Shown here one piece after another: positions 12,378 to 59,435 of a DNA stretch of 64,000 bases (the stretch's first letter is position 1; every line of letters starts with the position of its first letter). The notes beneath the pieces are model-generated. The model worked only from the letters and a program-made list of their open reading frames with translations, was not told where the DNA came from and made no database searches. Where the stretch lies: NCBI GenBank assembly GCA_001599595.1, contig BCHH01000010.1, positions 187,667-251,666 of the forward strand, in the 5' to 3' direction. The position numbers and the translations under genes are program-made. This stretch comes from Beverwykella pulmonaria (lineage: Eukaryota > Ascomycota > Dothideomycetes > Pleosporales > Melanommataceae).

Positions 12378-14261
12378 TCAGCGCCATGTACTCCCCACCG
12401 TACTGCTCGCCTGGCAGCTCGGTACGCTATAAGCCCGATTCGGATCGCTCTCCCACGTCACCGTGCCCGAACTGGACACCTTGATGAACTTATACTCCAC
12501 CGCCTGCCCCGCCGGCAAGCTCAGCGTAATACTCCAGATCGGATTGCTAGCCGTATACGCTGCGGCGGAGAGGGCCAACGCACTCGCGGGCGCCCAGCTC
12601 CCTAGCTGGGCAGTGTTTCCCGTGATCTTGATCGTGTCCCCGAAAACCGTCACGATCGACTCGGTGAAGGTAACCGAGACGGCCGTTGGGCAGGCCGAAG
12701 TAGCAAGCGTGGTTGCGACCGTCTTCGTTGCTGTTGCCGACACTACTGTCGCGGTACTGCTGTCGCTGGAGACGAGCACCACGGGCTCGCCGTTCGAGAC
12801 GCTGACGCAGATGTTGCCGCTCCCGTCCGAGGTGTACGACCCTGTGCCGAAGACGTTGTTCCAATTCCCGTTGTTTTTCTGCGCATTGAAGCAATATTGT
12901 CCACTCGTGCCAGACCCCGTATTCGTCGTCAGCACGACGAGATCGCCCCCCGCCCGACTCCACGCGTACGCGTTGCTCGCGACATACAAGTGGACGTGGT
13001 CGTTTCCAGCCAGCCCACCCGCCGCCTTCCTTGCGCCCGACAACTTCGAGATGGCAACATAGAGATCCGACGTAGTGCTGAAGCTGCTTCGCCAGAGATC
13101 CTCGCGATTCGCCGGGTCGGCACCACCGGAGTAGCCCTGCTCCGTCCCGTAATATACAATCGGAATACCTCGAGAAAGGATTACAAACGCCAACGCGTTC
13201 TTCAGCAGCGAGACGTCGTTCTTCTGGTTCAGCCATCGCGGATTATCATGGTTGTCCAGGAACGTCCCCAGCGCACTGGGATCCGGAAATTCGTTGCTGA
13301 TGGTGTTGTGCATATCGACAAGCGCCTGAGCCGTTCCTTTCTGCTGGTAAAAGTTGTTCATCGGGTAGTAAATCGCATAGTTCAGCAGCCCAGGCAACAC
13401 ACTCGCATACCCGGACAAGTACTCCGGATTCCCGTCAAACACCTCGCCGATCGAATAAACTCCCGCAGCTGCGGAGAAGCCGGTCCAGAAGTCCTTCTCG
13501 ACGTGCTTGACCGTGTCGATGCGGACGCCGTCGAACTGGTACTCAGTCACGAGCCACTTGATCCATGTCTGGTACAGAGTCCGGATCTCGGGTTTGGTTG
13601 TATAGACATCGGGCAGGCCCGCGATCTCGCAGTTCTCGATGCTAGTCTGGTTCGAGTAGTCAATGTCGCAGGCGGTGTGGTAGGAGCTGGCGAGGTCGAG
13701 GGGTGTGGGGCGGTTGTCGGCGATGGCGGCGAAGCCCATGTGGTTCGCTACTACGTCGACCATGATGTAGATTCCCTGGTTGCAGTGAGTACACACACAC
13801 AAGGTTTGTAATGGACAAGTTGAAGCCTACCTTTGAATGAGCCGTGTTAACAAGTGCCTTCAGATCATCCGCTGTACCGTAGTTCGAATTGATACCGTAC
13901 AGGTCCTGCGCCCAGTAACCATGGTATCCACCAGCACTATCTGCCACTACTATAAGCAACTGTCATCAAAAAGTAGCACAAGAGCAGGCTACTCACTCGT
14001 AACAACCGGTGTAATCCAAACGGCATCAAATCCCGCGCCCTTGATGTAATCCAACTTTGCCTCAAGCCCTTTGAAAGTCCCACCACAGTAGCTTCCTAGG
14101 TTGGAACATGAGGAACCACCGGTGTCGCTACTGCTGCGCGCTACCCGGTCGGTGAGGACAAAGTAGATGTTGCGAGACTTCCACGCGGCAGTGTCTGCTG
14201 CTCCAGCAATGGAAGTCAGAGAAGCAAGACAAGTTATGACGACAGAGAAGAAGAATTTCAT
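12378..14261 (-). CDS. Secreted alpha-amylase (GH13) with C-terminal CBM20
   Basis: Endo-acting starch hydrolase, 590 aa, from exons 14261-13997, 13940-13831 and 13775-12378; introns are 56 and 55 nt and phases agree. For intron 1 the GCAG acceptor at 13941 is preferred over an earlier TAG because it gives [13 protein letters not shown], the usual family sequence. Residues 1-20 are a signal peptide. The GH13 barrel shows all signatures: DVVANH, the nucleophile in [12 protein letters not shown], the acid/base Glu in GEVFDG and the third acid in [10 protein letters not shown] Ser/Thr/Val/Ala linker leads to a CBM20 starch-binding domain (about residues 495-590, with [10 protein letters not shown] and VEYKFIKV). 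It is divergently arranged with the AA13 enzyme at 15692, suggesting shared starch-induced control. Confidence 0.95.
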
Positions 14262-15691
14262 GGTGACGATGGCGGAGTCTAAGGAAGCGAAAGAAGCCCC
14301 CAATGCTGAATCTTCGAGCTGTGGAGGTTTCGAAGAGATGCCGCGTCCATATATGTTTCTCGTTAGCCTTGTCAACCCGAAAAGCATCACCTGCAATTTC
14401 GTGGGCGCCGGCTCGCTGCGCTGCCCGAATCCCGGTCATGGGATGCTCTTTACTCACATGCTCACCCGGCATTTTGTTTTTAGATTCAACCCGTACGCGA
14501 AACCACGGCTGCTTTGGGCCTACGCACGGGAAATAAGCGAACACACACGCTGACTAGTACACAGAATATAACCGTTGATAGGTTAGCTGCGTCCTCGCTT
14601 GGCTAGCCCTTTGCTTAGTGTATTTCAAAACATGATATGAAAGGACAGGAAGGATCCATACCCTTGCAACGGACATTTCCACAGCCCGTTTCGAATCGCG
14701 ACGGGACTTTGCCTATAACACTCCAATCCCTTCTTTCCAACCCAATCTTCAGCACATATCAGTTCGTCCGTCCCGTCTTCTTGAATGATTCCCAAAGCCA
14801 CTGACAAAATTGAAGCAATTCGCAATGATCAGCTGTTCCGCGATCAATCTCGGACCGAGTAGCGACGAATCGCACTGCGAATATGTATATTACTGTGCTA
14901 GAACAGGAAATTCTCCTCCGGTCAGGAACATTGCGACGCCGGGCAAAGAAGAACAATCTGGGGTAGAACGTGTGGGGAAGCGGGGGAAGGGCCTAGAAGA
15001 AGGGATATTCCGCGTGAATAAGTTTTGGATTTGCAAACTTTAGCATGCAGGAAGATGTCGAAGGTGGAATGACTGCGGAGCATAGGGCTGGATCAAGTAT
15101 AAGTCTACATCAATCTTACCACCGGCATATCTAAGACATTCAGGTCAGATCACCGTCGGTCCGAGTACAGGCCAGTCAAAACGGGAATATAGATTGCGCC
15201 CGAGCGGTGCGCGGCACGTGGCGTCATTGCAGCGGTAGGTACAGCGGCAAGGTCGGAAGCGAGCGTCGATCCAGGGCGTGCCGCATTGTTTCCTGGGGGT
15301 TGAACGTGGAGCCCCGCAATGTTTAGATGAAGATTAGTCCAAATCTGGACTGGTCCAGCTAACGCTCTACGGGACGCTGAATGCTGGACCAAGCTTTGCC
15401 TGCTCTTGATACAGAGATGAATTGTGAGGCCAAGCAAGCATGATTCCCAGGTGCGGACGATTGGTTTAAAGTCATAGTATAAGCATCAATATTGATTAAA
15501 CGATCATACTATAAGTTTGTGTATAAGTATCGTGGAGGTCTGGCGTCTCTTTTCGAGCAGCACTCAGTGGCTTTCAACCCTTCAAACACTTCTGTTAGTC
15601 TTCTGCTTCTTTGTCACGCTCATCTTTGGAGAGCCGAGTCTGCGCTCCATTTATTAAAATAAACACTGCTTTCGTATCCGTCTTCTACATC
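14262..15691. promoter_or_regulatory. Shared divergent promoter of amylase and AA13 genes
   Basis: This 1.43-kb region separates two head-to-head starch genes. On the plus strand five CGG triplets cluster at 15205, 15212, 15233, 15245 and 15254, as expected for sites of Zn2Cys6 regulators. The spacings (4, 18, 9 and 6 nt) do not give the CGG-N8-CGG AmyR consensus. A perfect 12-bp palindrome, atcaatattgat (15485-15496), lies inside a 7-nt inverted pair (15475-15481 with 15506-15512), about 200 nt before the AA13 start. No gene was found here. Confidence 0.4.
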
Positions 15692-16923
15692 ATGCTCTCC
15701 TCAGGACTCCAACTCCTGGCCTTTGCGACTACCGTCTCTGCCCACGGCTACATGATCACGCCCATGAGTCGCACAGGTCTGAACGCTCAGGTTCGTTCTC
15801 CTCTCCTCCTCATCCCATCACAAAACCCACCACACTAACCCATCCCTTTCCACAGTCTGGCCAAGACACATGCCCCGAATGTACCATCCTGGAGCCTGTA
15901 ACTTCCTGGCCTACCCTCGATACCGCCCTCGTCGGTCGCTCCGGTCCCTGCGGTTATAATGCGCGCGTATCCGTCGACTACAACCAGCCCGGCGCCGTAT
16001 GGGGCACATCCACCGTCGCGACCTACAAGCCCGGCGATGTCATCGACGTGCAGTGGTGTGTAGACAACAACGGCGACCACGGCGGTATGTTCGCGTACCG
16101 CATTTGCCAGGACCAAGCTCTCGTGGACAAATTCCTGACGCCGGGGTATCTGCCTACCGATGCCGAGAAGCAGGCTGCCGAGGACTGCTTCACGGCAGGC
16201 ACGCTGCCGTGTACGGATGTAAGTGGGCAGACTTGTGATTACAATGCCGACTGCACCGAGGGCCAAGCGTGCTGGAGGAATGACTGGTTTACGTGCAAAG
16301 GGTTCCAGGACACGAAGTGTAGGGGGGTCGATAATGCGCCTTTGAACTCCTGCTATACGAGTATTGCGGGCGGGTATACCGTGTCGAAGAAAATCAAGAT
16401 TCCGGAGTATGTATCGAAACATACGCTATTGTCGTTCAAGTGGAACTCCTTCCAGACGCCGCAGGTTTATCTAGGCTGCGCGGATATCGCTATCTCGGGC
16501 TCGGTCTCTACTCCACCATCGGCGTCCACAACTAGCAAGCCTTCGACGACGCTGGCGACGTCAAAGGTCGCTACGTCTACGAGCGCAGCAGGCACCTGTT
16601 CTAGCACCGTTGCCAATGTCGCCGTCACCTTCAACGAGCGCGTCACAACCGTATTCGGCCAGACGATCAAGATTGCAGGCTCGGTCACGGAGTTGGGCAA
16701 CTGGGACACATCGGCCGCACCAGCGCTCTCTGCGTCTCAGTATACCAGTAGTGATCCTTTGTGGACAACTACTATCACACTTGCTGCTGGCAGTGCTGTC
16801 GAGTACAAGTTCATCAAGGTCGAGAGTAGTGGTACCGTGACCTGGGAGTCTGGCGCGAACAGGGCGTACACTGTTCCTATGGGTTGTGATAGTGCGGTTG
16901 CGGTTAGTGGAGAGTGGAAGTAA
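15692..16923 (+). CDS. AA13-type starch lytic polysaccharide monooxygenase with CBM20
   Basis: Copper enzyme that oxidatively cleaves starch chains outside the cell. Exons 15692-15790 and 15856-16923 flank a 65-nt intron (gttcgt...cacag), giving 388 aa. Residues 1-17 are a signal peptide; cleavage after VSA exposes His18 (HGYM), the N-terminal copper-brace residue. A second brace His is likely in NNGDHGGMF. Many Cys (CPEC, CGYNA, CFTAG, CNADC-like) fit the AA13 fold. A Ser/Thr-rich linker leads to CBM20 (about residues 285-388; [20 protein letters not shown]). Its CBM20 and that of the adjacent amylase are visibly alike (TVTWES, NRAY), suggesting a common origin of the module. The two enzymes probably act together on granular starch. 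Confidence 0.93.
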
Positions 16924-26682: not shown

Positions 26683-29385
26683 ATGGAGTCCACGATACAA
26701 TTCGCCACCACGCCGCTGCGTCCCACCAGGTCCAACAACGTCCAGGCTGTGGGCGGAGTGTATCCTCTTCGTTCGCGTTCCAAGTCGCGTAGCAGGAAGG
26801 GCTCGTATGAGCAACAGAAGGCTCATGAACTCGAGCATGGCGAAGATGAAGATGCTGGCCTGCGAGATGAGCGGGACTACAAGCATAAGCAGGTGCGTCA
26901 GATTTCGTCCCCACACCGATGGATTGCTCACATGATATATGCAGATCTTCAACTTCCGCCAGATGATGTTTCTGGCCTATTCCTCCATTGGTGTCATCTA
27001 CGGGGATATTGGAACCTCTCCATTATATGTCTTCTCTTCGACTTTTACATCGGTACCCACCCATGCCGACCTACTCGGTGCACTCTCGCTTATCATCTGG
27101 TCCCTCACTTTGATGGTGACCGTGAAGTATGTTCTCATCATTCTTCATGCAGACAACGATGGCGAAGGCGGCACTTTCAGCACGTATTCTCTCCTCGCTC
27201 GATTTGTAAGTTTCCAGTTACATACTCTGACTGTTCTGTACGCTAAACATTTGTAGGCCAATATCGCGAATCGGGATCCTCGAGAAGCTAGTTTAATTCG
27301 TAAGAGCACGCAAAAATACCAGAATATATATCAAAAGCTGATTGAAAATCAGGCATGGAACGAACACGTACCAACGAACTCGGACGTTCCACACGCAATG
27401 TGCGATCGGCAATTGAAAACCGCCGTTTCTTTCGTGGCCTCTTGAAGACCATTGGTGTTCTTGCAGTTTCTATGGTTATGGCAGATGGGGTTTTGACCCC
27501 GGCCCAGTCTGTACTTGGTGCTGTTCAGGGACTCAACGTCGTCGCCCCTAACATCTCAAAATCCACAATCGTTGGCGTAACTTGCGCTATCCTAATCTTG
27601 CTGTTCCTCTTACAGCCGCTCGGCATAACAAAGATTTCTGTCATTTTTGCTCCCATTGTTATGGTTTGGCTGGCTTTTAATGCTGGGTTTGGTATTTACA
27701 ATCTCGCTCGGTGGGTATTTCTATCTCTAAATTCCACACACTAATCTAATTGATTTAGATACGACTACACGATTTTGAAAGCTTTCAACCCATTTTACGC
27801 GTTCGACTATCTCATTCGCAACAAGGAGTCTGGTTGGAGAAGTCTTGGCGGTATCCTTCTGGCCTTCACGGGTGTCGAAGCTCTCTTTGCCGACATTGGT
27901 GCATTCAGCCGACAAGCTATTCAACTGAGTTGGCTTGGGTACGCGTACCCTTGCCTTCTGCTTGCCTACACTGGCCAGGCGTCGTACATTAGCCTCAAGC
28001 CCGAAGCTTATTCTAATCCCTTCTATAACTGTGTCCCCAAGGGATGGGTCATCCCTTCGCTTATCATCGCCATTCTGGCAGCGATTGTTGCTTCACAAGC
28101 AATTATCACTGCGACCTTCCAGGTACGCACTTTTTTTTCACTGATCATATCATATTCTAACAGTATTCAGCTTATGGCGCAAATCATGAAGTTGTCCTAC
28201 TTCCCCCAGATCAAGGTCATCCACACGTCCAAGATCTATCACGGCCAACTCTACGTCCCGGCTGTGAACTGGATTCTCATGATTGGCACCGTTTTGGTCG
28301 CAGCAATCTACAATAATACGACCTCCCTCGGAAATGCCTACGGAGTCTGTGTTATGTTCGTCACCTTCTTTGACACCTGCATGGTGACCCTCGTCGCTAT
28401 CCTGGTATGGCGCATCAAACCCTACATTGTGTTTTTTCCATGGCTCACAATCGCCTGCTTGGATGGCACGTTTCTCTCATCGTCACTCGTCAAGGTTCCA
28501 GATGGGGCGTGGTTCACGCTTCTTCTATCTTGTGCGCTGGCCTCGGTCTTTATCCTCTGGCGCTTTGGAAAGGAACAGCAATGGTCTGCGGAAGCTAGTG
28601 ATCGCTTCCCGACGAGTCATTTTGTCCGCACAAATGAAGATGGGCGCCTGCAACTTACGAATATGTTTGCCGATAAGACGCTCAGCTCTATCGAAGGCTT
28701 CGGCATCTTCTTCGATAAAGCTGGCGAGACGACACCCATTGTTTTCAGCCAGTTCATCCGGAAACTTGTCACTGCGCCCGAAGTTATCGTGTTCTTCCAT
28801 CTCCGGCCTCTGGAGACTCCATCCGTTGCGCCCGAGAATAGGTATTCTGTCACGCGTCTTGCAATACCAAACTGCTACCGTCTTGTCGTTCGCCACGGAT
28901 ATATGGATGAAGTTATCACACCCGACCTCGCATCTCTCGTATTCGAAAAAGTGCGCGACCACATCGTTACCCGTGCTCTAGATCGCGAGGGTGAAAAGCC
29001 CGCCGTCACAACTACCAGCACCGATCTTGGGAATCTCGAGCACCTCAACAACGTCAGCAAAGTGAGCGGGAAGATGACAGCCGGCGAGAAAGATGAGTCT
29101 GCAACAGCTTCCTCTTCTGATCCCTCGGCGCACCAAGCTCCCACTCCAACGCCTAGCTCTGCTAGTACAAGTGGCCGGCTTACAGCGCTGGAGCGTGCGT
29201 ACAATCATGAAGTGCTGTATATTATGGGCAAGGAACAGATGAAGGTTAAGAAGGGTACGAATATGATTAGGAAGGGATTGCTGAAGGCGTTCTTGTTCTT
29301 GAGGGAGAACACAAGGACGAAGATTGCCAGTCTCGAGCTAGATAGAGATAGGGTTATTGAGGTTGGATTTGTGAAGGATGTATGA
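26683..29385 (+). CDS. HAK/KUP-type high-affinity K+ transporter
   Basis: Six exons: 26683-26892, 26945-27205, 27257-27299, 27353-27710, 27759-28122 and 28171-29385; 816 aa, phases agree throughout. Plasma-membrane K+ uptake by H+ symport is the known role of this family. The N-terminus (residues 1-70) is a charged cytosolic leader. TM1 carries [18 protein letters not shown], the family signature with GDIGTSPLY. Further hallmarks are [56 protein letters not shown] and [19 protein letters not shown]. About 12 helices are followed by a long cytosolic C-terminal domain with a Ser/Thr/Pro-rich insert near residues 690-730. The fifth intron (28123-28170, 48 nt) is open in frame, so the ORF reads through it; removing it restores the conserved TFQLMAQ sequence. 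Confidence 0.95.
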
Positions 29386-36753: not shown

Positions 36754-36832
36754 GTCGTCCAAATAACACCTTTCCCCGTATTATGGGGGAGTATCTTCAT
36801 CATTTGCCGTTACTTGATCACCCACTGCTACC

Positions 36833-37819
36833 ATGGGCGTGCTAACCCGCTCGACGCAGGTGGCTTCGTCTGCTTCCGAAACCACTGACACCCCGGTCCC
36901 AACTGCAAGGGCAAAATCCCCTGGAAAAATCAATCTCTACAAGTTCTACAATGAATGGAAAGGCCATCCCATCCAGTACCTCGACCGATTCCTCGAAATA
37001 ACTCTTGCGGAACGGTCGGATAAGCCTGTCATCTACCTAGCCGGCGACTCTAGCCTCGACAACAAGTACTGGGTGCCATCATCTGGGCCCGGAGGTGAAG
37101 CGCTGACCGTGGAGATACCAGAAATCTATCACAAGACCCTTGATCGGCCACGTCCGAAACCTGATGTATCCTTCTGGCTGAACCACATACTCGGCGATCG
37201 CGCGACATGCGTCAACACCGCAGTTGAAGAAACTATGCTTCGGGACCGGGATGAGAAACTCCTTCTTCATGATGCATTCATACGCGACAATATCCGCAGC
37301 AATGATGTCCTCATTGTGAGCATCGGTGCTAACGACGTCGCCCTGAAACCCAGCCCCGCCACTATCGTCCGCATGCTGCAGATGGCCTGGCTCACCCAAT
37401 TCTCCTCTCTCGAGAACGGGTCTGCATATGCCCTGCCGTACTTCAAGCATATGTTCGGAACCAAAGTTCAGGAATACGTCTCACGGCTGACCTCAAAAAC
37501 GAAGCCTCGCGCTGTGATCGTGTCGATGATTTACTTTCCGTTGGAGTGGGCGCCTGGACAGAAGAGTTGGGCGAACGCGCAGTTGAAGGCGCTCCGGTAC
37601 GACTCGTATCCGGAGAAGCTGCAGATTGCCATCAGGCAGATATATGAGATTGCAACGAAGGAGATTAGAATAGAGGGAACTCAGGTCCTGCCTTGCGCGC
37701 TATTTGAGGTACTCGATGGGAAGGAGAAGCAAGACTACACCGATCGAGTGGAACCGAGTTCAGAAGGTGGCAGAAAGATGGCTGCAAGGTTCGTCGAGCT
37801 CCTTGAAGGAATCATCTAG
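36833..37819 (+). CDS. SGNH-hydrolase-like protein, fungal family
   Basis: Single exon, 328 aa, start ctaccATGGGCG. No signal peptide, so probably intracellular. Block I is LAGDSSLDNKYW (about residues 68-79), with the putative nucleophile Ser. Block III is VSIGANDVAL (about 160-169), the GxND oxyanion motif. The C-terminal block, where SGNH enzymes carry DxxH, reads DYTDRVEPSSEGGRKMA and has no His, so catalysis by the usual Ser-His-Asp set is doubtful; it may use another residue or be non-catalytic. Its start codon is only 88 bp from the right end of the MULE, so its native promoter has been displaced. Confidence 0.75.
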   Translation: MGVLTRSTQVASSASETTDTPVPTARAKSPGKINLYKFYNEWKGHPIQYLDRFLEITLAERSDKPVIYLAGDSSLDNKYWVPSSGPGGEALTVEIPEIYHKTLDRPRPKPDVSFWLNHILGDRATCVNTAVEETMLRDRDEKLLLHDAFIRDNIRSNDVLIVSIGANDVALKPSPATIVRMLQMAWLTQFSSLENGSAYALPYFKHMFGTKVQEYVSRLTSKTKPRAVIVSMIYFPLEWAPGQKSWANAQLKALRYDSYPEKLQIAIRQIYEIATKEIRIEGTQVLPCALFEVLDGKEKQDYTDRVEPSSEGGRKMAARFVELLEGII

Positions 37820-40893: not shown

Positions 40894-43221
40894 CTACTCA
40901 ACACCCCTCTTCTTACTCCACTGATGACTCCCTTTCGTATCTCCAATCCTACTCTTCTCCTCATAAATCTTCTTCGTCAACTGCCTATACAGGAACTTCC
41001 CGTCGCTGTTATACACAATGCTATGATCTGAGTCTGGGAAAAACTGTGTCTGCATCTTTTCGGGCGTAACTCTAGCGCCCATCAGAAGATCCACCAACGC
41101 GGCTGTGTTCTGAAAATGCACGTTGTCGTCGCCGGTACCGTGCTGGATGACAAAGCCTCCCGCGATCTTCTTGAAGCCGCAGGAGTCATGGACACGAGAC
41201 TTATTGTAGCCCGCCGGGTTGAGCGTGGGCGTTTTCATATAGCGCTCGGTGTAAAGTGAGTCGTAGAAGCGCCAGTCCGAGACCGGTGCTGTGATCATAG
41301 CGAACGAAATGATTGGATCGGCTAGCTCAACAACCTTGGATGACAGGTAGCCGCCGTATGACCAGCCCCAAATGCCAATGTGGTCGCTATCGACCCAAGG
41401 GTTCTTTGCGAGTTCCTTGGCAGCCCAGACTTGATCTTGGGCCTCGAGGTCTCCAAGATTAGAGGCAACTAGAGAACGGAAGGCGCGTCCTTTGAAACCG
41501 GTGCCTCGGTTGTCGACGGTATATGTAATGAATTCAAGTTCGGGGTCGGAAGTGATGTACGCTTTCCAGTTCAAGCTGTTGAAGGCCTTGGATACCTCCT
41601 GTGCACCCGGGCCACCGTAAGGGATCAGAAGGGCGGGGTACTTCTTGCTGGGATCGAAGTTTGGTGGAAGACGTAGCATAGCGTTCAGTTTTACGCCAGA
41701 AGGATGTTGGAGCTCGTGGTAGGTGATATTAGGTAGCTTATATTCCTGGAGCGTGGTCCATAGCTTCTTGTTGTCGGTGATGGTCCTAATGGGCTTTGTT
41801 GAGTTCACCGAGTAAAGTTCTTGGTATGGGACGTCGGGGCCGCCATAGCGGAGGACGTAGTACGAGCCACCAGAGGAGAAGGAGGCGGTCCAATAAGCAG
41901 GAACAGTGTCGTCCACGAGGGCAGTCTTCTTCAGAGTCTTGTAGGACACAGAGTAAACGTGGCGTTCAGTGCTGTGGTGCTCGGTAGACGTGTAGTACAC
42001 CAAACCGCGCTTTGCATCAATCTTGAGGATCGCGGCGACCTCCCATTCGCCTGAGGTGAGGGCAATCTTCTCGCCACCACCAATAGGAAATAGGTAGAGA
42101 TGGTTCCACCCACTTTCGTCAGACAAATCCAAATAATACTCTGTGCTTCCGTTGTAAGAAGAATTACCCAAGGAGCCAACATAGCTAATGGCAATATTGT
42201 CGTCGAGCCACCCATCAGAACCATCTCGTTCACGAACAACAGATTGGGAGCCTGCAGCCACATTCACGAGAACCAGCTTTTCTTGGTCTTGCACTCGGTT
42301 GAAAGCGCGGTAAATGACCTTGCCGTGTTCTTCCGTCAACCAAGCTACTTCGCCGATGACGAGATCATCTTCTGGCCAAGCCTCAACGGGAAAGTTTGTG
42401 GTCTTCAAGGCGTCCACATCCAGCAGATTGAAGGCCACGGAGGGGTTCTTGGTTCCAACTTTGGGATAGCGCAACTCGAGCTCGAATGGATAGACAGGAG
42501 CAACACTCTTGCCGTCCATGTAGTACGGAACGCGGAACGTGTTGACGCCAGTCTCGTTGAAGCTGAGGTAGGCAATGTATTTTCCATCGGGCGAGTACCA
42601 CAGCGCAAAACGATCGCCGAATATTTCTTCCTCATACACCCAATCGGGAACAGCGTTGAATTGATCAGGGCCGCCGTCGTTCGTGATCTGCGTGATCACT
42701 CCGTCGTTCCAGATGAAGAGGTTGTTGCCTTGAACGAATGCGATTTGCGATGAGGAAGCTGGATTCCATTCCGCATATTGAATATTCCCAGTAGAATTGG
42801 GAGAGAGCGATGTAACGTTTCCAGATGCGACGTCCTGGATCAGATAGTCGGCGAAATAGGAATGGCGATACTGCTTTGTGTAATTGACGGCCCAGAGCAC
42901 GCGAGTCGCATCAGGTGAGATAAAGTAGTCCCAGTAACCAGCAGGCACCTTGTCGGCTGAAAGAAAGGTGCTCTGCTTTCCTGTTGCGATGTTTTCGAAA
43001 AGGAAAGATCCGTCATCCGCGTTGAAGATATAGTCGCCATCTGTGCCCGTGCTGACCCAGCTCAGCGCTCTCGTGGAGGCCGCAAACTGAGGTGCATCGG
43101 TCGTAGAGGAGTACGTCAGGAGTTTCGTTCCATTCCCTAGAGGCTGGTGTGGGAAGCGTGGAGGTTCGATCGCCTGAATGAGCGGGATGACGGCCGCCGC
43201 CAGAAAAGCGAAAGAGAACAT
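40894..43221 (-). CDS. Secreted dipeptidyl peptidase IV (S9B)
   Basis: Serine protease that removes X-Pro or X-Ala dipeptides from peptide N-termini outside the cell. The start at 43221 gives MFSFAFLAAAVIPLIQAIE, a clear signal peptide, and 775 aa, the usual length of secreted fungal DPP IV. The frame is open to a Met at 43338, so a longer form with an N-terminal extension cannot be excluded. Domains: an eight-bladed propeller region with DWVYEEEIFGDR (the Glu pair that binds the substrate N-terminus), then an alpha/beta-hydrolase domain with the nucleophile in GWSYGG, Asp in GTGDDNVH and His in DSDHSIVY. Many N-x-S/T sites fit secretion. No introns. Plus-strand frames across it are shadows. 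Confidence 0.95.
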   Translation of the reverse strand: MFSFAFLAAAVIPLIQAIEPPRFPHQPLGNGTKLLTYSSTTDAPQFAASTRALSWVSTGTDGDYIFNADDGSFLFENIATGKQSTFLSADKVPAGYWDYFISPDATRVLWAVNYTKQYRHSYFADYLIQDVASGNVTSLSPNSTGNIQYAEWNPASSSQIAFVQGNNLFIWNDGVITQITNDGGPDQFNAVPDWVYEEEIFGDRFALWYSPDGKYIAYLSFNETGVNTFRVPYYMDGKSVAPVYPFELELRYPKVGTKNPSVAFNLLDVDALKTTNFPVEAWPEDDLVIGEVAWLTEEHGKVIYRAFNRVQDQEKLVLVNVAAGSQSVVRERDGSDGWLDDNIAISYVGSLGNSSYNGSTEYYLDLSDESGWNHLYLFPIGGGEKIALTSGEWEVAAILKIDAKRGLVYYTSTEHHSTERHVYSVSYKTLKKTALVDDTVPAYWTASFSSGGSYYVLRYGGPDVPYQELYSVNSTKPIRTITDNKKLWTTLQEYKLPNITYHELQHPSGVKLNAMLRLPPNFDPSKKYPALLIPYGGPGAQEVSKAFNSLNWKAYITSDPELEFITYTVDNRGTGFKGRAFRSLVASNLGDLEAQDQVWAAKELAKNPWVDSDHIGIWGWSYGGYLSSKVVELADPIISFAMITAPVSDWRFYDSLYTERYMKTPTLNPAGYNKSRVHDSCGFKKIAGGFVIQHGTGDDNVHFQNTAALVDLLMGARVTPEKMQTQFFPDSDHSIVYNSDGKFLYRQLTKKIYEEKSRIGDTKGSHQWSKKRGVE

Positions 43222-44528
43222 TGCGACCAAGGAAAAGCGATGTTGGCGCTCGTAGAGCGGATGCGCAATAGATACTAAAGAAGTACCGGTACCTAACAAT
43301 GATCGGCCGCCGAGACAATTGCTTCTGCAGCTCCCCAATCTAATTCTCGCGTGCTAAATGGCCCGTCTGCTCCCCGCTCGATACGTCACCTCAAGGAATT
43401 GGGAGGTAATACAAGAGACAAAAAAGAGCGACAGAAGGATACTACAGTAACTCTCGTAGGATAACGGGCTCCTCTTAAGCTAGCAGACAAGTCGCGATGG
43501 ATATGTCGCGACGATTGGCATTGAATTGCAGCTGCCTCATTCAGCAGGTGACAAGAGAACGACATGGCTTGCCAAGCGGGCCTAAACAACCGGCAACCCG
43601 GGTAATCCAGATACGAGCGGAGTCTTCTCGTGTCGAGCTATTTGGGGGTGGAGATGCTAGCGTTGTGGATGATATTGAGAGGAAGGGCAATGGGAATAGA
43701 TGAAGTCGCGTGAAGGCAGAGGAATCGCGACGCGACGTCGGCCCGTGACCTCTGTCGAAGAAACACGTGGCTCAGGAGGATCCCAGCGGTAAGCGGATTC
43801 CAGACTCATGAAAGCATAAAGTTGAAAGTATCACCAAACCCAGGTTTACGGAAATGGCGCTGGTCTGTTGGCAGTGATGAGGGTTGACTGGAAATCACGT
43901 GTTTCAAAGATCACCTGGACAGATCTAGTTCGGCTACATTTGAAAGCTGACGAGTTCTGCTTTGATGGATCTTGTATTTACATAGCATCATGTACTCTAG
44001 CAAGACCTAGTTGCCTCATCATCAATATAAATGCGAAGAAAGTGCTCAAATGATCGTCTTAGCGCATGGTTTCCAAAGGATTCAAGCAGTGTGACCCTAG
44101 ACCCATTAACGTTGATGATATCGGCTGAGATGTGGCAAGATTCTGGTTTGCAATAGTTAGCATGTAGAGCTTGTATTCTCTAGACCCGAGTTTGAACGTC
44201 CAGAGGCACGTGAGAGGAGTGATAGAGGATAAGCCAACATTGACAACCGAAAATGGAGGTTCGGTGACAAAAGGCCGAGACTTGCTCAACTTTCAACCTC
44301 TGAATGAGGCTCACTCTTGGGAAGATGTACTTGGTCGACCTTGATAATTACCATTCCCAAAATAGAGGGCAAGTGTAATCGAGCGAATGTAATTCCAGCC
44401 CCGCATCAAGCGTAGCTAGCTAGATAATTGATATACAAGAACCCCACTGGTATCTCACCTTTTATTTTGTAATAGAGTAAATAATATAGTTTAACTCCTC
44501 CAAAAATACCCATCGCCAGACACTTCAT
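43222..44528. other. Intergenic
   Basis: Promoter of DPP IV and 3' flank of the redox fusion gene. No gene or RNA seen. Confidence 0.5.
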
Positions 44529-47500
44529 TCATTCCTGCAAAGTTTCGCCTCTCCGATTCATCCCACCTGCCATCGCACTGGCCTGCAACCTAAAGCTCCT
44601 CAAACTGCCTGTGTTACTCCTCGACCTCGTGTGTCCATTCTCCATACCCGCGCCATGAATCATCGGTGTCGACATCGTTATGCCTGTTCTCGGACCGGAA
44701 ATCGCTTGCATTGAGCGTGTGCGATCCGCTATTGCGTTGGCGCTATGAGGAGGTGACGGTAGGTTGTTGGTACTCCCTGTCTTGGGCCGTGTATTCATCT
44801 TGGTCATGAGTGCCGACATAGCCGCCGCGGGTGAGATATGTACCGGGGTAGGCGGGAGCGAAGAATCAGACGTCGCAGTGTTGCGGCGCGAGTGTGTGTG
44901 CGCGGGATTGTGTGCGTCGGAGGATGTGTTATGACGCGACGTTGGGTTTCGCAGGTTGGTGGAGGGCGAGCGACTTGACGAGCGACTGGAAGGTGGCGTC
45001 GGAAGTCCATTACCGGCCGTGGGTATCGACCCGTAGGTCTGCATGAGCTGCTCGAGGTTGATAGCCTGGGGTAGCTTGCTGAGGCGGCGTATCGCTTTGC
45101 GGTTCTTATCCATGAAGGTCGACATCGCCTTGAGCGCGGTGCCGTTGTGGTGGTGTTCGTATGCCGGAACACCGTTGGGCGTAGGTTCGGCGCGGGCGGC
45201 GTGCTGCTCGGTCAGGTCCATTTTCCGAGGTACGGCGAGCGGCGTGTTGTCGAGGTTCATCTGGATCTGGCTAACGACTGTATCGAAGTCCACGCCCTGG
45301 TGCTGGTGCTGATGCGTGCGCTGGTCATAGGTCCTTGTGGCGCTCATAGCAGTCTTCTGGGTGAGCACGAAGAAAGAGCCGTCGCGCACCTTACGCTTAA
45401 GGATGTTCCAGCGCGCGCGAGCTGGGTTGCGCTCCATTTCCGGCCGGAAGACGGAGTAGCGGGCGAGCTTGGCGTAGAAGCCCTCAAGCCTGTTGGCCAT
45501 GCGATCTAAGACTTGCATCAGGAAAGTTGACAGGGCAGCAACTCGCTGGGTTTCGGATTGTGCCTCAAGCTCCATGATGGTGTCAAACGCGTCCATACCA
45601 GCACAGGCTTCTTCGCGAATGTTCTCGAGGAACTCCATATCGAATTCGACGGACTTTTGGGCGTAGGTGATTATGCCCTTTTCGTGGTGCCGGGCAGCGT
45701 CGCTGTTCGAAGTGAATTGTCCGATCTGTGAGATCTCATTCGATGCCGTGAGAGCATCGTTCGAGCCCTTCGCGCGGGCAATGATGCCAAGCACATCGGG
45801 AAGTCTGGTCGGGCCGCTTGAAGATGACGCATTCGCGAGTGTGAAAGAGATTTTGAGATACAGTTCTTGGAGCTTTGCACCGAATAACGAAGAGAAACCG
45901 CCTTGGAGTAGACGAGATTGATAATGGTAGAATCGACGGACACCGCCCATGTTGAACAAATCACCTTGGAACCAAACGTTGCTGGACTCCATGATCATGC
46001 CCACTTCAAAATGCGATGCAACCACTGTCTCGACAGCGACGCGAAGGTATTGCGCCCACAGATCGTACAGCATGCTGAGCTCCTCAGAGTGGAGGAACGC
46101 AGGCTTAGGAGTCATCTCTCCTATGTAGTACTTGGTGAGCAGACTGCTGACCTCTGGGTTGTTTGTATGGGCGAGCAAATCGAAAGATCTGGAGCAGTCC
46201 ACGCCGGCATTTGACTTGATGATATTTACGCCGCCGGGATGCATGGCACCGAAATCTGTGACGTCGTACACCTTTCCGTGTACTCCAATCCAGAGACGAG
46301 AGTCGGGGCGGTGTCCAGTGTGCATTGCGAGTTGGGAGAGAGGAATGGTCGGCTGGTTGCATGGAAGCGGCTTCGGTGTCATGAAGACGTCGATCATGAA
46401 ACGTCTCTCGGCGAACGCCAGGTTGAGAACAGCATCGGCACTCTCCATGGAATTGGATCGGTGGTTATAGATAGCTTTCCGAATGCCGGACATGACAGAG
46501 TCAAAGACTCCAACGGAACCGCACACGTACATGTAGCTGCAGAACATTAGTACGCTAAAAAGCCAGGAATCTGATTAACTTACCCTCCTATACCACCCTG
46601 TTTCTTTGACATGACGAAGTCGCATATGGCTTGTCCTTGTTCAACGATCAGGCCATCGATGTACCTAGGAGGCATCTCTTTCTCAACGAGGTCCCTAGCA
46701 TATGGGTCGTAGACAAGGCCTCTTGAGTCGCGCGAGAAGGCTGTGTGAACTTCCATAAGACCTTCGTTAACGTATTGTCGGAGTTCATTCTCGTAGGCAA
46801 AGCGCTCCCGAGATTGAACTCCTAGGTAGAGTATGGTCTTTCCGAAGCAACGTCCAGCGCGAGATTGCCAGAAGCTTCGGAATGGAGCGATGCCGCTACC
46901 ACCGGCGAAGAGAGCGACTGGAGACGTCTCATCGAACGGAAGCTGGAATGCCGAGGGTCGTGACACTCCAATCAGCAACTCTTCATCATCAAGGACGTCC
47001 ATCTCCTCGTCCACTGGCGGATTCAGGAAACCGCTGCTGACACCGTGTCGTGTGATCTTGGAGTTTCCAGCAAAGGTGGAGCAAAGTTGATAGTCACTTC
47101 GAGAGATGGTAAGATCGACCGTGCTGGGTAGGAGCTCATCGGAATATGTTGAGATGCTGTAGGTTCTTGGAACCTCGACGGGAACGAGGTCCGCAAGCCA
47201 GGACAGGTTACCAGAAAGATCGAATGCTTGGTCCCAGACACGAGGGGCGGTGTCTTTGACGGCTGATTGCAGCAAGTCACCGAGAGAACCTCGCACCGGC
47301 CACTCATCCGTGGCCAAAACTTGGAGTACCGTATTAGAGGAAGCTCGAAGCATGTTGTGCAGTTTCATCACCAGGTCTTTGGTAAGTGGCGCGAGATGGC
47401 CCTTACGAAGGATGTCGACGACTGTCAACTGAGGCCTACCCGTTCGAGTGATAGATCCCATGTGGTCCGCGAACCTAGTCCAGGTGCGGTCCAATGTTAT

Positions 47501-49764
47501 GGGATGCTCGAGCATGGCATCCAACCCAAGGGCTGCTGCCACTTTTGCGCATTCGGTCCAACTGTTCATGGGCATGACAGCAAGTCTGTCTCCAGGGGCG
47601 AAGGTAATGCCTGAGTTTTCGATGTCGAGTGTTACTTGCGCAATCGAGCGTTTGGGATCTGAGTCCACATGATTCCGGCTTAGTATTCTGCACCGGTAGC
47701 GGCACTCCTCGAAGGTACCACGCATCTCGTGGGGCTGGGCGTCGAAGTTGCCACGGAATGGCTCCAGTCGCTCCTTCATCGACTCCGAGAACTCCTTGTG
47801 TACCATTTCCCAGGACCGTTGATCATTGCCACCAGAGTTGCCATTTGTCTCAGTTCGTCCAGTCTTTGCGGCGCATTCAAGAAGACCAAAAACCTTATAC
47901 CGGTGGACTCCCATGAAGCCACGCTCGCCAGTATAAGCCTCTACTACGCCATCCAAGACACCTATCAACCTAGGATCGCCGCAGGTCTTGACGTAGTCTG
48001 GAATCCGGTAATGGTACTCGATAGCGGCGATAAAGGCTCGGAGATTGGATGGAAGCCAGGCGCGAAGATGGACACCCTCGGCACCCAGGAATGAATCATA
48101 CTTGGCGCGCCCGAGGAAGGCGTCCATGACCAGATAGGGAGGAAATTGTAGGCCTGATGTAGCGGGGCACCGTTTCGACAAAGGAGCAGAGAACTTGGCC
48201 CATCTGACCCACTCCGGTGGCGAAACGTAGTTCTCTCCAGATCGATCGTTGGGAGAAATGGTGTGGAACGCATTCGGCATACGTTCAAGAACCTCCTTCA
48301 GTCGGACAAGAGAGCGTAGGAGACCATCGTTGTTTCTGTTCATGACATGTTCCTGGCATTCTGCAATTGCGTCAACGCTATTTCAGTTAGTCATAGTCAT
48401 CATAGTAGGTATTGCGAATATAAATTACCCGTGTTGGAAGGATGCTGAACCTCGATAGTTAGTCAAAAGGCTCTGAGAAAGCAAGGATATGGAGCTCACC
48501 AGCCGTATCAGCGCATCCCTTGAGGAAGGCATTCTCAGCACTGTCTCCAAACATGGCCCACCTGAGAGTAGTGTTGTCAAACCTTCCAACATATGGATAC
48601 GAAGATAGAGGGTCCTTGATATCGACATTGTATGATGACTGATCGAAGAACGTGAGATGGGGAATGGTTCGACCCATCCGGATGCAGATCTGTACGTATG
48701 GGAGGCCGATACTGAGAGGAATTCCCTTGACTTCATCGCCAAGATCCTCGCACATTGGTACACCGTCTAGCTTGAGGGGTTTGGCGGATACGTTGATACC
48801 CTCGTTTCCATCATGTTTCTCTTCATATCGCCAAATCGAACATAGCATGCCCAAACTTACTAAGGCGGCCCACAAAGCTTTATCAGGAATTACACACGGT
48901 GTACCTTCGACGATTGGCAATGCACCGATCGATTCGCGGACTCGGCCACGTGCAACACATCCGGGCATTCTCTCGCAGAGATCCGACCAAACTCTACCGG
49001 GCGAGTTGCGAAGAGCGCCAGGCGCCTCAGTAGTATCAGGAGGACAGAAACCATACTCGGTGCTAAGGTAACCATCGCGCCATCCAGTCTTAGGTCCAAT
49101 CTCTTCAGCACGAAGCAGAACTTGGCGTGCAGGTGCTCCTAGAGCAACAGCAAGTAGGTCTCGGTCGTCAACGTTGAGCTTGTCGAGACTCTTTACACCC
49201 TTGGCGTTCTGTATTTCCTTGATCTCAGCCATTGAAGGGACGTTGGAGTATATCAATTCGTTGATGGCCTTGCGTTCTCTGTAGTAATGTTAGTGGCCGT
49301 GTAGCGCATACCCCATATCACAAGTCCAAGTGAAGATTTCATGACCCAGCGGAAAGCTGTCTCTAGCAGATATGACAGTGCTTAGTAGGCTATTGATCAA
49401 CTTGCAATCTGGGTAGAGGAGGTTGACTATCCCATTGAATTATGGATATATTTGGTGCGGAGGTGACGAAATGAATGCAGGCGAGAGTATATCATACCTT
49501 TGACGTAGAAACTCTTCAACATTTTCGTTTGCTGGAATCTAAGAAATGTTAGCAAGTATCCCATACATTAAAAAAGAAATATCATACGCCAAAAGCTGCA
49601 TGTACATCGCCTGGCTGAGCAAACCCAGAGAATGTGCACCCACGAGGGCCCGTTCGACTGCCCGTTCGACTGCCCGCCCTGCTTCCAGCCATTGAGCCCA
49701 TTGGACAAACTTTTCCCCCAGTTCCAGACACTGGGCATCTCTGCTCCGACATTCTTGAAGACAT
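44529..49764 (-). CDS. Three-part redox fusion: IDO-like dioxygenase + FAD/NAD(P)H reductase + cytochrome b5
   Basis: Six exons: 49764-49588, 49538-49498, 49278-48500, 48450-48429, 48377-46584 and 46536-44529; 1606 aa with every junction in phase. Residues about 60-530 resemble indoleamine 2,3-dioxygenase, the haem enzyme that opens the indole ring of tryptophan: ALWAALVSLGMLCSIWRYE, WLPSNLRAFIAAIE, and FMGVHRYKVFG with His498 in the place of the haem ligand, followed by a SGGND loop. Residues about 560-960 are a ferredoxin-reductase-type module (RTYS at about 744 for FAD, GGSGIAPF at about 832 for NAD(P)H); no FMN domain precedes it. Residues about 1010-1080 are cytochrome b5 (HPGG His1037, LLAHTNN His1061, 24 apart). 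A helical region and a disordered Ser/Pro tail follow. The N-terminus has CPV and CPM motifs. Confidence 0.85.
49648..49679. repeat. Short tandem repeat in exon 1 of the fusion gene
   Basis: The 12-nt unit cccgttcgactg occurs twice plus a partial copy, encoding the SRTGSRTG stretch. Confidence 0.8.
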
Positions 49765-53814: not shown

Positions 53815-54882
53815 TTACAGCTCCAGACCCCCCAAGCCTTCCTCGATGTTCACCTCTTTTCCATCAAAACTCCAATTGAACTTCTCAAGAGGAGGGAATG
53901 GGGTCTCCAAATATATCATCTGACTCTCTTGATCAATCCTAAACTGGCTCAAATCGAAGATCGGATCTTCCAACCGCGGCCCAAGCAACTGCTGCTTCTC
54001 TTCCAGTGTAATTGGGGACATCCAAGGCCTAGAGGTGTCCCATACACCACCTCTAGTAATCAGAGGTAGTTGTCTTTTTGAAAACAGCGCCCGAACTCTA
54101 GGATCTCCATGCTCCTGACCCAATGACCGCGAGCTTGGCCAAAATCGGCCATTTTCACCTCCCGTAACATCAACGTCCGCGCCATACTCCAAAAGTAGCA
54201 GAACGCATTGAAGCGCTCGGTCAGGGTGAGTGTCGGTATTCTCCAGAAGTGCACATTGCAACGGAAACAATTGATCGTACCCGATGGCTTCCGGGTTCAC
54301 CTTTGCGCCCCTCCGGAGCAAATGCCTCACAACAGTAGGCAGATGCACGCTTACTGCGAGATGTAGTGCTGTGTTCTCTGGCCGTCGGTAAAACTGTTGT
54401 ATTGGACCATTAATATCCGCTGAGCGCGAGATCAAAAGATGAGAGACTGCTATGTGCTCTTTTGTGATGGAGAGGGCCAGCGGCTTTCCGTCACGGAGAC
54501 CAACAGAGTGTTGAAATGGCTCCCAATAATCAATAGCGGCTCCAGCGTCCAGAAGAAGATGCACTATCTCAAGATGCCCAGCCACCGACGCAGTATGCAG
54601 AGGGGTCGAATTACGCACGATAGATCCGACGTTGGCTCCACACTCGAGGAGCTTGCGTGCTAGATTTGTGTTGTTCTTCTCTGCAGCCCATTCTAGCGCT
54701 TCGCTGTTATTGTACTGCACATTGTATTGGAGGAGGTAGTTTGAGAGAAGAGTGTGAAGTCTTTTGTTCGTTTGGGCGAGGTGGCTGATGTCGGCTTCTG
54801 AACTCAAAAAGTCGGCAACGGATAGGATCAGCTCATTCGCAAGTCCGAGGAGTCTATTAGGGCTTGAAGCACAAGTCTTCAT
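53815..54882 (-). CDS. F-box-like / ankyrin-repeat protein
   Basis: Single exon, 355 aa. Residues 9-50 (NRLLGLANELILSVADFLSS ... LAQTNKRLHTLLSNYLLQ) match the F-box pattern that binds Skp1 in SCF ubiquitin ligases. Ankyrin repeats follow: EALEWAAEKNNTNLARKLLE, STPLHTASVAGHLEIVHLLL, PLALSITKEHIAVSHLLISR, TALHLAVSVHLPTVVRHLLR and LLEYGADVDV near residue 235. The C-terminal 100 residues have no known domain. The arrangement suggests a substrate adaptor for protein degradation; many fungi carry large families of these and targets are unknown. Confidence 0.8.
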   Translation of the reverse strand: MKTCASSPNRLLGLANELILSVADFLSSEADISHLAQTNKRLHTLLSNYLLQYNVQYNNSEALEWAAEKNNTNLARKLLECGANVGSIVRNSTPLHTASVAGHLEIVHLLLDAGAAIDYWEPFQHSVGLRDGKPLALSITKEHIAVSHLLISRSADINGPIQQFYRRPENTALHLAVSVHLPTVVRHLLRRGAKVNPEAIGYDQLFPLQCALLENTDTHPDRALQCVLLLLEYGADVDVTGGENGRFWPSSRSLGQEHGDPRVRALFSKRQLPLITRGGVWDTSRPWMSPITLEEKQQLLGPRLEDPIFDLSQFRIDQESQMIYLETPFPPLEKFNWSFDGKEVNIEEGLGGLEL

Positions 54883-55235
54883 AGTGGAAGATAGACGGAA
54901 GTGTGAATGAGGAAGAGAAGAGGTCGTGAATTTTGGAGACGGTTGCCTGGCGAGCTCGACAGGGATCCTTGTCTAAACTCTGATTCGTTACGACCGAAAT
55001 GCGAGGTCTTGCAAATTGTTTCGATATAACGTCAGGTTATAAATCTATCCCTAGAATGTTGGCGAGGCCATAAACAGGAGACTTTCACAGTCTTCTTCAT
55101 ACCGTTTTTTACGTGTTTTGATCTCCATGCAATGCCACTATATACGTCAAATCACTCCCAAGGCTTTTATGGACTAATAAAAAGAAGAGTTGTGGGGTTA
55201 TTAATTCAATATGACTTGCGTACATCAAATGGCTA
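54883..55235. other. Intergenic
   Basis: No gene seen. Promoter of the F-box gene and 3' flank of the dehydrogenase. Confidence 0.5.
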
Positions 55236-56940: not shown

Positions 56941-57408
56941 ACTGTAATACAGGCGATGAGAAGGCTGCGAATTGTTTGCTTCTTACTTTTGGATTCGCGA
57001 TGTTGCGGACCGGATATTGCCAATCATGGGTCAGTCCCAGCGGGATGGTTGTGGGATGTGAAAAGCGTTCGGGCGGATTAGTGAGAAAATGTCGTCATAA
57101 ATGCAATATAGTAGGCTATGCCCTATAAGGAGGTGCGCCGAAGGACGCATCCCGCACCGTTCGAGGGGTCGTATTTGACATTTCACGAGAGATCTGGCAG
57201 TTCTTCGGTTCGGTATCGGGTCACTCAGAGAGAGAGCATCACTCGAGTCTCGAGTACCACTTCTGGCGGTCTCCTCTGTCGCCGCGACTCTTACACACCT
57301 CCTCGCGTCGGTTTCGCACCTTTCTTGCGCCGTTGTCCCCTTGTTGCGCAACTGTGCCCCCTTTCGCCGACCTTTTTCCTACCATTATTCATCGTTTTTT
57401 TGAAAATC
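56941..57408. other. Divergent spacer, ALDH / ATP-grasp
   Basis: Shared promoter region. The frame of the next gene stays open back to an ATG at 57118, but the extra 97 residues are Arg/Ser-rich and unlike a protein domain, so I treat this as leader. Confidence 0.45.
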
Positions 57409-59435
57409 ATGAGTGCTCGGATTATTGTCCAGCATGCCAATGGGCCTGAGGCATCGTGGAAGGTCTCATGGAAGGTTGTCGACGACGAGCCCAAGGCGGC
57501 CGCTGGGCAGCGATTTTTCCAGTCAGCGGACATCATCTTCGAGCCGATTGAGGCACCTGCTGCGTTCACACTGCGCGATTCTGGCTTGCGCATTTCTCTG
57601 CAGCCGGAAGGAGGAAGTAGAAGCGAAAGCGAAATTCCGTCTAACGATCTCGGACGTCTCCACTTCGAGTTTCTTCTTGAAACGCTAGAGGCGAGCATCA
57701 CAGCTACTCGGGCTGCCAAGCTGGTAGCTCCACGAGGAAATGGCAACATCATACGCTCGAACATTCTTCCCAGCCGCATGCACGACGTCGAGCATGTCGA
57801 GAGAACAGCGGCGCTCGCACAGCCTCTCCAGCTTTTCACCGGTGGCGAGTGGACTACATCGACAAGTCTTGTTGCCCTTCTCCAGGGTTCTGCCGGTGCT
57901 ATTCGCCTGCGCAATGATTCAAGCACAGGCACTGAGGAGGTCTTCGCTTTTCTCGAGAAGGAACTGGACAAGCGCTTGTGTATGCCTCTCCTAGCCGGTG
58001 GTCTGGAGCGGCAGACCATAGTCATCGTCGAGGGCGGGGAGGCGTTTCCGTTTGAAGGGGCCTGTTCAGCGCAACTGTACGAAGCCGGGGAATCGCTAGG
58101 GATTGATATCATCGTCCTGGCTGTCGAAGGTCACGATCTTCAGCGGCGTTCCGAATTCGCTCACTGGTGCAAGGCCTTCATTCCCGTAGAGTGCGGATAC
58201 GATGCCGGGTTTCCAGCAAGGATCGTTGCTGCTGTTAAACAATACGCCAAAGAGTCCGGCCGGCCAATCGACGGCATCGTCACTACCTATGAAAGCTACC
58301 ATGTCGCTGTCTCGACCGCCGCGGAAGAGCTGGGCTTGCCTTGCGAGCCTGTCGCTGCTTATGAAATCGCAACCAACAAGTTCAAGACGAGTATCTTTGA
58401 AGGCCGGAAGTCCTTCATAGCGTCAGACGTTAAAGAAGCACTTCACATTGCGAGAACAGAAGATGTGCCGTGGCCTATTATTATTAAGCCTTGCCGAGGC
58501 TGGGCTTCAGAGCTTGTTTTCAAGGTGAACGATATTCAGCAGCTGGAAGAGGCTGCTCCTCGTATGAGATCCGATCGACACGGCACTTACTTCGTGATGG
58601 AGCATTACTGTGATGGCCCAGAGGTCGATATTAACTTCGTCATGTACGACGGCGAGGTGCTTTTTTGGGATATGCATTTTCCTCCCTCCCTGTCGTTCGC
58701 GAAGGCTAACATGGAACAGAAATCGGTGACGAAAACCCTAAGAGCGCAGAGAACGGATCAGATTCCTTCGGTGAACTAGACTACCTACTCCCATCCCAAC
58801 TGCCCGCGACCGAACAGCAAGCCGTCTACGACTCGGTCCTACAGAGCATCACGCGGCTCGGCTTCCGCAACGGCATCTACCACTGCGAGGCCCGCGTCGA
58901 TAACTCGACCATGGAGTGGCGCTTCAAGGCATCCGGCGTTCCCGAAATGGCGCCGCGCCAGACCCACAATGGCAAGCCCGCAGTATCCTGGCTCGTCGAG
59001 ATCAACACCCGCCCCCCGGGGCTCGACACCTGCGACATCATCAAGACCACGTGGGGCGTCGACTACTGGGCCCTGCTGCTCATCACCAAACTGCGCAACG
59101 CCTCGGATCGGGCCCGTGCCCTCTCCCAGCCCTACCGCGGCGGCGCCCAGTACCATGCCGATAAGGTGTGGGTCCTGGCCGCCTTTAACGAGCCGAAGAA
59201 GGGCATCTGGGAGTCGGGCAACGTGACCGAGGAGTTGGCACTAAGGCGGCCGGATATCGCTAAGCATCTGTCCAAGCATCTCACGTTCGCTAAGAAGGGC
59301 GATAAGGTGCCCCATCCCTCGACCGGTGTGAATAAGTTCGTGGCTTACCTGCACGTCTTTTCGAAGGAGAGTCGAGCACATCTCCTGGACCTGGCGACAG
59401 AGGCCAGGAAGGAGCTCAGGATAGAGTACTCTTAG
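57409..59435 (+). CDS. ATP-grasp ligase-like protein with non-canonical intron
   Basis: Exon 1 57409-58669, exon 2 58720-59435; 658 aa if joined. The N-terminal half is family-specific. A carbamoyl-phosphate-synthase/biotin-carboxylase-like ATP-grasp core follows: PIDGIVTTYESYHVAVSTAA, the ATP-binding lysine in IIIKPCRGWASELVFKV, the adenine-contacting FVMEHYCDGPEVDINFV, and the metal-binding WLVEINTRPPG. Such enzymes join a carboxylate to an amine or thiol using ATP; the substrates are unknown. The only join that keeps the conserved DGEVLFW-EIGDENPKSA sequence uses a 50-nt intron starting AT (atatgc) and ending CAG, with a good branch site gctaac. If that donor is not spliced, the frame stops at 58777-58779 and the protein loses its metal-binding part. 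Confidence 0.75.

Follow-up and report, generated by a model that had tools for sequence, protein, structure and literature searches.

The stretch of Beverwykella pulmonaria DNA analyzed here (contig BCHH01000010.1, positions 187,667 to 251,666; hereafter the window) is 64,000 nucleotides long and holds, on its minus strand at 44529-49764, a gene of six exons separated by GT..AG introns. Its product is predicted to join in one chain a domain of the indoleamine 2,3-dioxygenase (IDO) superfamily, a nicotinamide adenine dinucleotide phosphate (NADPH)/flavin adenine dinucleotide (FAD) reductase without a flavin mononucleotide (FMN) domain, and a cytochrome b5. A conserved helical domain and a tail are further parts, beyond the three recognized in an earlier sequence-only reading of this DNA. 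We consider it probable, at about 0.6, that the gene product is a single-chain, NADPH-driven heme oxygenase of the IDO superfamily.

A search with the full-length protein returned 301 proteins at E ≤ 1e-3 (7995 candidates scored), and family counts out of 120 refer to the relatives listed from these 301. Spliced in silico, the exons proposed by the sequence-only reading gave 1606 amino acids with a sole, terminal stop and agreeing phases at all five junctions. Frame and phases therefore held; one splice site did not fare as well. In 115/120 relatives exactly two residues separate a conserved Thr from SFQHG (the remaining five lay outside the search pattern), compared with four in this splice. 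Shifting the intron-3 acceptor to a CAG 6 nucleotides downstream regained the two-residue spacing and raised the IDO Pfam score from 27.5 to 35.6 bits (E 5.9e-9; scored on residues 60 to about 560). Because of this spacing and the raised score, the original acceptor is probably 6 nucleotides off and the true exon 4 would be 16 nucleotides long. The corrected product has 1604 amino acids, or 1600 if Met5 is the start, and its histidines 496, 1035, and 1059 are His498, His1037, and His1061 of the 1606-residue model, whose numbering is used below unless marked corrected. From the gene models of the relatives, we infer that the gene is transcribed as a single message.

Pfam searches with the product yielded matches to four families, each above its cut-off. 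The IDO family (PF01231) matched residues 144-381 with 27.5 bits against a cut-off of 26 in the uncorrected splice, spanning only profile positions 7-211 of 412, that is, the first half; FAD_binding_1, NAD_binding_1, and Cyt-b5 (PF00173) scored 45.2, 32.1, and 56.3 bits, respectively. No Pfam match to a flavodoxin (FMN) domain was found in the product, and a genome-wide search for Flavodoxin_1 gave 10 matches, none of them on contig C10, which carries the window. Four reductase motifs occur in 120/120 relatives each: PRTYSI for FAD, GGSG for NADPH, YxCG, and a Ser-Arg pair, which is that of NADPH-specific reductases. The b5 heme ligands are kept likewise (His1037 in 119/120, His1061 in 120/120). 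These matches and kept motifs bear out the one-chain fusion that the sequence-only reading had described: the IDO match falls within residues 60-530, where it was sought, and the three histidines sit where they had been placed.

All four Pfam domains were present in 118 of the listed relatives according to precomputed assignments, the exceptions being P0051 (no NAD_binding_1) and P0088 (no Cyt-b5), and each of 25 members scanned matched all four families at E ≤ 1. Because the four domains co-occur in so many relatives, a chance or annotation fusion appears unlikely. Identity to the window protein ranged from 57 to 95% among the listed relatives, with medians of 73.5% for the IDO part, 68.3% for the FAD part, 71.8% for the NADPH part, 78.9% for b5, 60.2% for the helical domain, and 38.2% for the tail. 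The design is not confined to B. pulmonaria; Colletotrichum sublineola has two listed members of 1619 and 1683 amino acids (P0038 and P0108), and Podospora comata holds another (P0043). The named source organisms are filamentous ascomycetes of the Dothideomycetes, Leotiomycetes, and Sordariomycetes. The records label the relatives as hypothetical protein, sulfite reductase flavoprotein, NADPH--hemoprotein reductase, or related to nitric-oxide synthase, and one (P0050) is already annotated as a putative indoleamine 2,3-dioxygenase.

A relationship of the N-terminal domain to IDO appears well supported, with all 25 hits of a profile search of solved structures being IDO1 or IDO2 (best E 1.1e-12). 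A fold search with a model of the relative P0136 likewise showed IDO1/IDO2 in all 50 of the matches listed, but the model had a predicted local distance difference test score (pLDDT) of 54.8 and the TM-scores were low. The putative proximal ligand His498 is kept in 119/120 relatives; it fell within one residue of IDO1 His346 in three comparisons and four to five residues off in another, and the spacing around it departs from that of canonical IDO. Histidines 441 and 496 (corrected numbers) are present in all 125 sequences that have a residue at these positions, even in divergent members, and 214 of the 458 positions of the IDO domain are conserved in at least 95% of the 120 relatives.

The signature motifs of canonical IDO are rare in this family. 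Among 124 relatives, of which P0138 stops ahead of the GTGG loop, GTGG was found in 1, GGS..Q in 2, F[FYN]...R in 9, and R..H[ILMV] in 12, whereas the same four motifs occur in 19, 17, 18, and 18 of 19 bacterial IDOs picked for G[TS]GG, and in both canonical IDOs of the same genome. The corresponding unpicked count is 23/27 bacterial IDO-like frames; of the four without G[TS]GG, two are full-length cyanobacterial frames of 377-379 amino acids. The fungal relatives have motifs of their own, TGR.ETNG (101/124) and HR[YCF] (121/124). At the position aligned by eye to IDO1 Arg231, where the alignment is gapped, 108/120 have Lys; Phe324, aligned by eye to the IDO1 Phe163 position, is kept in 120/120. 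A literature passage describes IDO1 Arg231 as binding the substrate carboxylate. The B. pulmonaria genome has two canonical IDO genes, on contigs C3 and C8. Since the signature motifs are rare and these two genes exist, a further tryptophan 2,3-dioxygenase is probably not what the fusion gene encodes. In addition, C4:268800-271600 gave a weak IDO-like match, split into two segments of 29.4 and 25 bits.

The remaining parts of the chain probably serve regulation or assembly, in so far as the helical domain and the tail are concerned. The helical domain was predicted with pLDDT values mostly of about 80-94, and 72 of its 253 positions are at least 95% invariant; a fold search with it gave no clear match, and a sequence search with this domain alone returned 24 fragment-sized proteins. 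The tail is poorly conserved among the relatives. Within exon 6 it carries RRLS[KR] in 112/120 relatives, which looks PKA-like to us, and a SLR.F.L-type motif in 87/120. At the other end of the protein, two Cys-Pro motifs precede a conserved PRGC (window 49640-49764, residues about 1-42). In the 85 of 120 relatives that hold this anchor, two Cys-Pro motifs were counted in 73, one in 7, and none in 5; we take them to resemble heme-regulatory motifs.

We propose that NADPH would reduce FAD in the cytochrome P450 reductase-like module and that FAD would hand single electrons on to the fused cytochrome b5, which would take the place of the missing FMN domain. The b5 would then reduce the IDO-like heme, presumably ligated by His498 (496 corrected), and this heme would bind O2 and oxygenate a substrate. 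With less certainty, this substrate would be one other than free L-tryptophan, and the reductase would feed electrons at each turnover, leading to monooxygenation and not to ring-opening dioxygenation. The built-in electron donor, the mostly missing canonical loop motif, and the precedent of MarE together make us lean toward a reductase-driven oxygenase, more probably a mono- than a dioxygenase. According to passages of PMC12312684, MarE is a relative of IDO and TDO that performs mainly monooxygenation with ascorbate present and is chiefly a dioxygenase without it. On this view the protein may be a self-sufficient, IDO-fold monooxygenase in which the NADPH-FAD-b5 chain hard-wires an electron supply of the kind that shifts MarE to monooxygenation, and it may act on an endogenous substrate.

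Monooxygenation seems to us more likely than the reaction favored by the sequence-only reading, in which the protein would be a genuine indole 2,3-dioxygenase and its reductase and b5 would serve only to return ferric heme to the ferrous state. Dioxygenation by IDO and TDO consumes no net electrons (passages of PMC12312684), so a fused reductase could serve re-reduction only, and b5 and P450 reductase are reported as IDO1 reductants in passages of PMC13142367 and PMC4191572. The profile comparisons that place the domain in the IDO superfamily and the invariant Phe324 also fit this dioxygenase, and the two cyanobacterial frames without G[TS]GG indicate that this motif alone is not decisive. However, the near absence of GTGG and GGS..Q, the Lys at the Arg231 position, and the canonical IDOs already encoded in the genome speak against it, and the analysis gave no support for a dioxygenase whose heme is maintained in the ferrous state to act on an indole. 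A reductase fixed at 1:1 would be no worse suited to an electron-consuming reaction than to occasional re-reduction, and we regard a self-sufficient indole dioxygenase as unlikely.

Two further explanations leave indole oxygenation aside altogether. The union of heme and reductase resembles the design of flavohemoglobin, and passages of PMC3820574 report that b5 can support the nitric oxide dioxygenase activity of cytoglobin in vitro; the protein might accordingly detoxify nitric oxide, nitrite, peroxide, or another small molecule. The same source states that an IDO-like myoglobin cannot be a high-fidelity nitric oxide dioxygenase, and we consider such a role improbable. Less probable still is an IDO-like domain devoid of heme or catalysis, acting as a scaffold, or as a heme or redox sensor, in control of an NADPH-b5 module that delivers electrons to other partners. 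The rarity of canonical IDO motifs, the paired Cys-Pro motifs, and the large helical and tail regions would agree with it, but the extent of conservation across the IDO domain and the invariance of histidines 441 and 496 (corrected) suit a working site better.

The coordinates of the gene and of its neighbors are collected in Table 1. Among the neighbors typed by Pfam on 10 long open frames of the window, two of which had no Pfam match, no obvious pathway cluster was found. Upstream of the gene, the window at about 50.6-51.35 kb translates to X throughout. A second, incomplete copy lies elsewhere in the genome, at C18:615.7-617.7 kb (locus C18:612500-619000), and is matched from query residue 737 on; the IDO part and most of the FAD part found no counterpart there. 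It groups with P0131, P0132, and P0183 in a divergent clade, and in its frames Tyr replaces the first b5 heme His.

Table 1. Features of the fusion gene and of its surroundings (window positions).
Feature	Position	Strand	Remarks
Exon 1	49588..49764	-	N-terminal segment, residues 1-59, two Cys-Pro motifs; alternative start Met5 at 49752
Exon 2	49498..49538	-	Residues 60-72 and part of 73; junctions set beside relatives
Exon 3	48500..49278	-	IDO-like domain, first part, about residues 74-332
Exon 4	48429..48444	-	16 nucleotides with the probable, corrected CAG acceptor; 48429-48450 (22 nucleotides) in the sequence-only reading
Exon 5	46584..48377	-	Remaining IDO-like domain, FAD_binding_1, most of the NADPH domain
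His498 (496 corrected) codon	47903-47905	-	Within exon 5
Exon 6	44529..46536	-	End of the NADPH domain (YVCG), cytochrome b5, helical domain, tail, stop
FAD/NADPH reductase	46724..47698	-	FAD_binding_1 (567-770) to NAD_binding_1 (830-891); NADPH domain extends into exon 6
Cytochrome b5 domain	46113..46331	-	Residues 1007-1079; heme ligands His1037, His1061
Helical domain, conserved	45345..46103	-	About residues 1083-1335, borders approximate
P450	518-1558		Pfam
Alpha-amylase with CBM20	12378-13826	-	Pfam
CBM20 frame	15658-16923		Pfam
K+ transporter	27754-29385		Pfam
GDSL lipase match, sub-cut-off	36818-37819		Pfam
DPP IV	40894-43353	-	Pfam
Ankyrin repeats	53815-54972	-	Pfam
ATP-grasp N	57115-58779		Pfam

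We found no description of the fusion or of its reaction in the open-licence PMC literature, and passages of PMC10269595 do not describe it. The architecture itself is already in public databases. Its conservation over three classes, Dothideomycetes, Leotiomycetes, and Sordariomycetes, points to an important reaction, one that the records examined do not assign. The built-in NADPH-FAD-b5 chain would make both the cellular re-reduction of an IDO-type heme and the choice between inserting one or two oxygens testable in one purified chain.

Compared with the IDO family (PF01231; human IDO1 and IDO2, fungal and bacterial members), the N-terminal domain is alike in sequence and probably in fold, but the fusion family rarely has GTGG or GGS..Q, spaces its proximal His differently, and carries its own fused electron supply. 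MarE and other heme-dependent aromatic oxygenases are IDO/TDO-type heme enzymes with altered active-site loops; the fungal family, which rarely shows GTGG, would be comparable to them in these respects. The words reductase and NADPH occur nowhere in the main text of PMC12312684, which means that this MarE paper describes no fused reductase. With cytochrome P450 reductase, sulfite reductase flavoprotein, and the reductase domain of nitric-oxide synthase (NOS), the fungal chain shares FAD_binding_1 and NAD_binding_1, the Ser-Arg pair, and YxCG; unlike these diflavin reductases, it has no FMN (flavodoxin) domain and bears a cytochrome b5 fused behind the reductase. In the self-sufficient heme monooxygenases P450 BM3 and NOS, a single chain carries a heme domain followed by an NADPH/FAD reductase. 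The fungal protein has the same order of heme domain and reductase, with an IDO-like heme domain and b5 instead of FMN as the carrier, and, if our reading is true, it would add to P450 BM3 and NOS a further one-chain heme monooxygenase architecture, widespread in filamentous ascomycetes.
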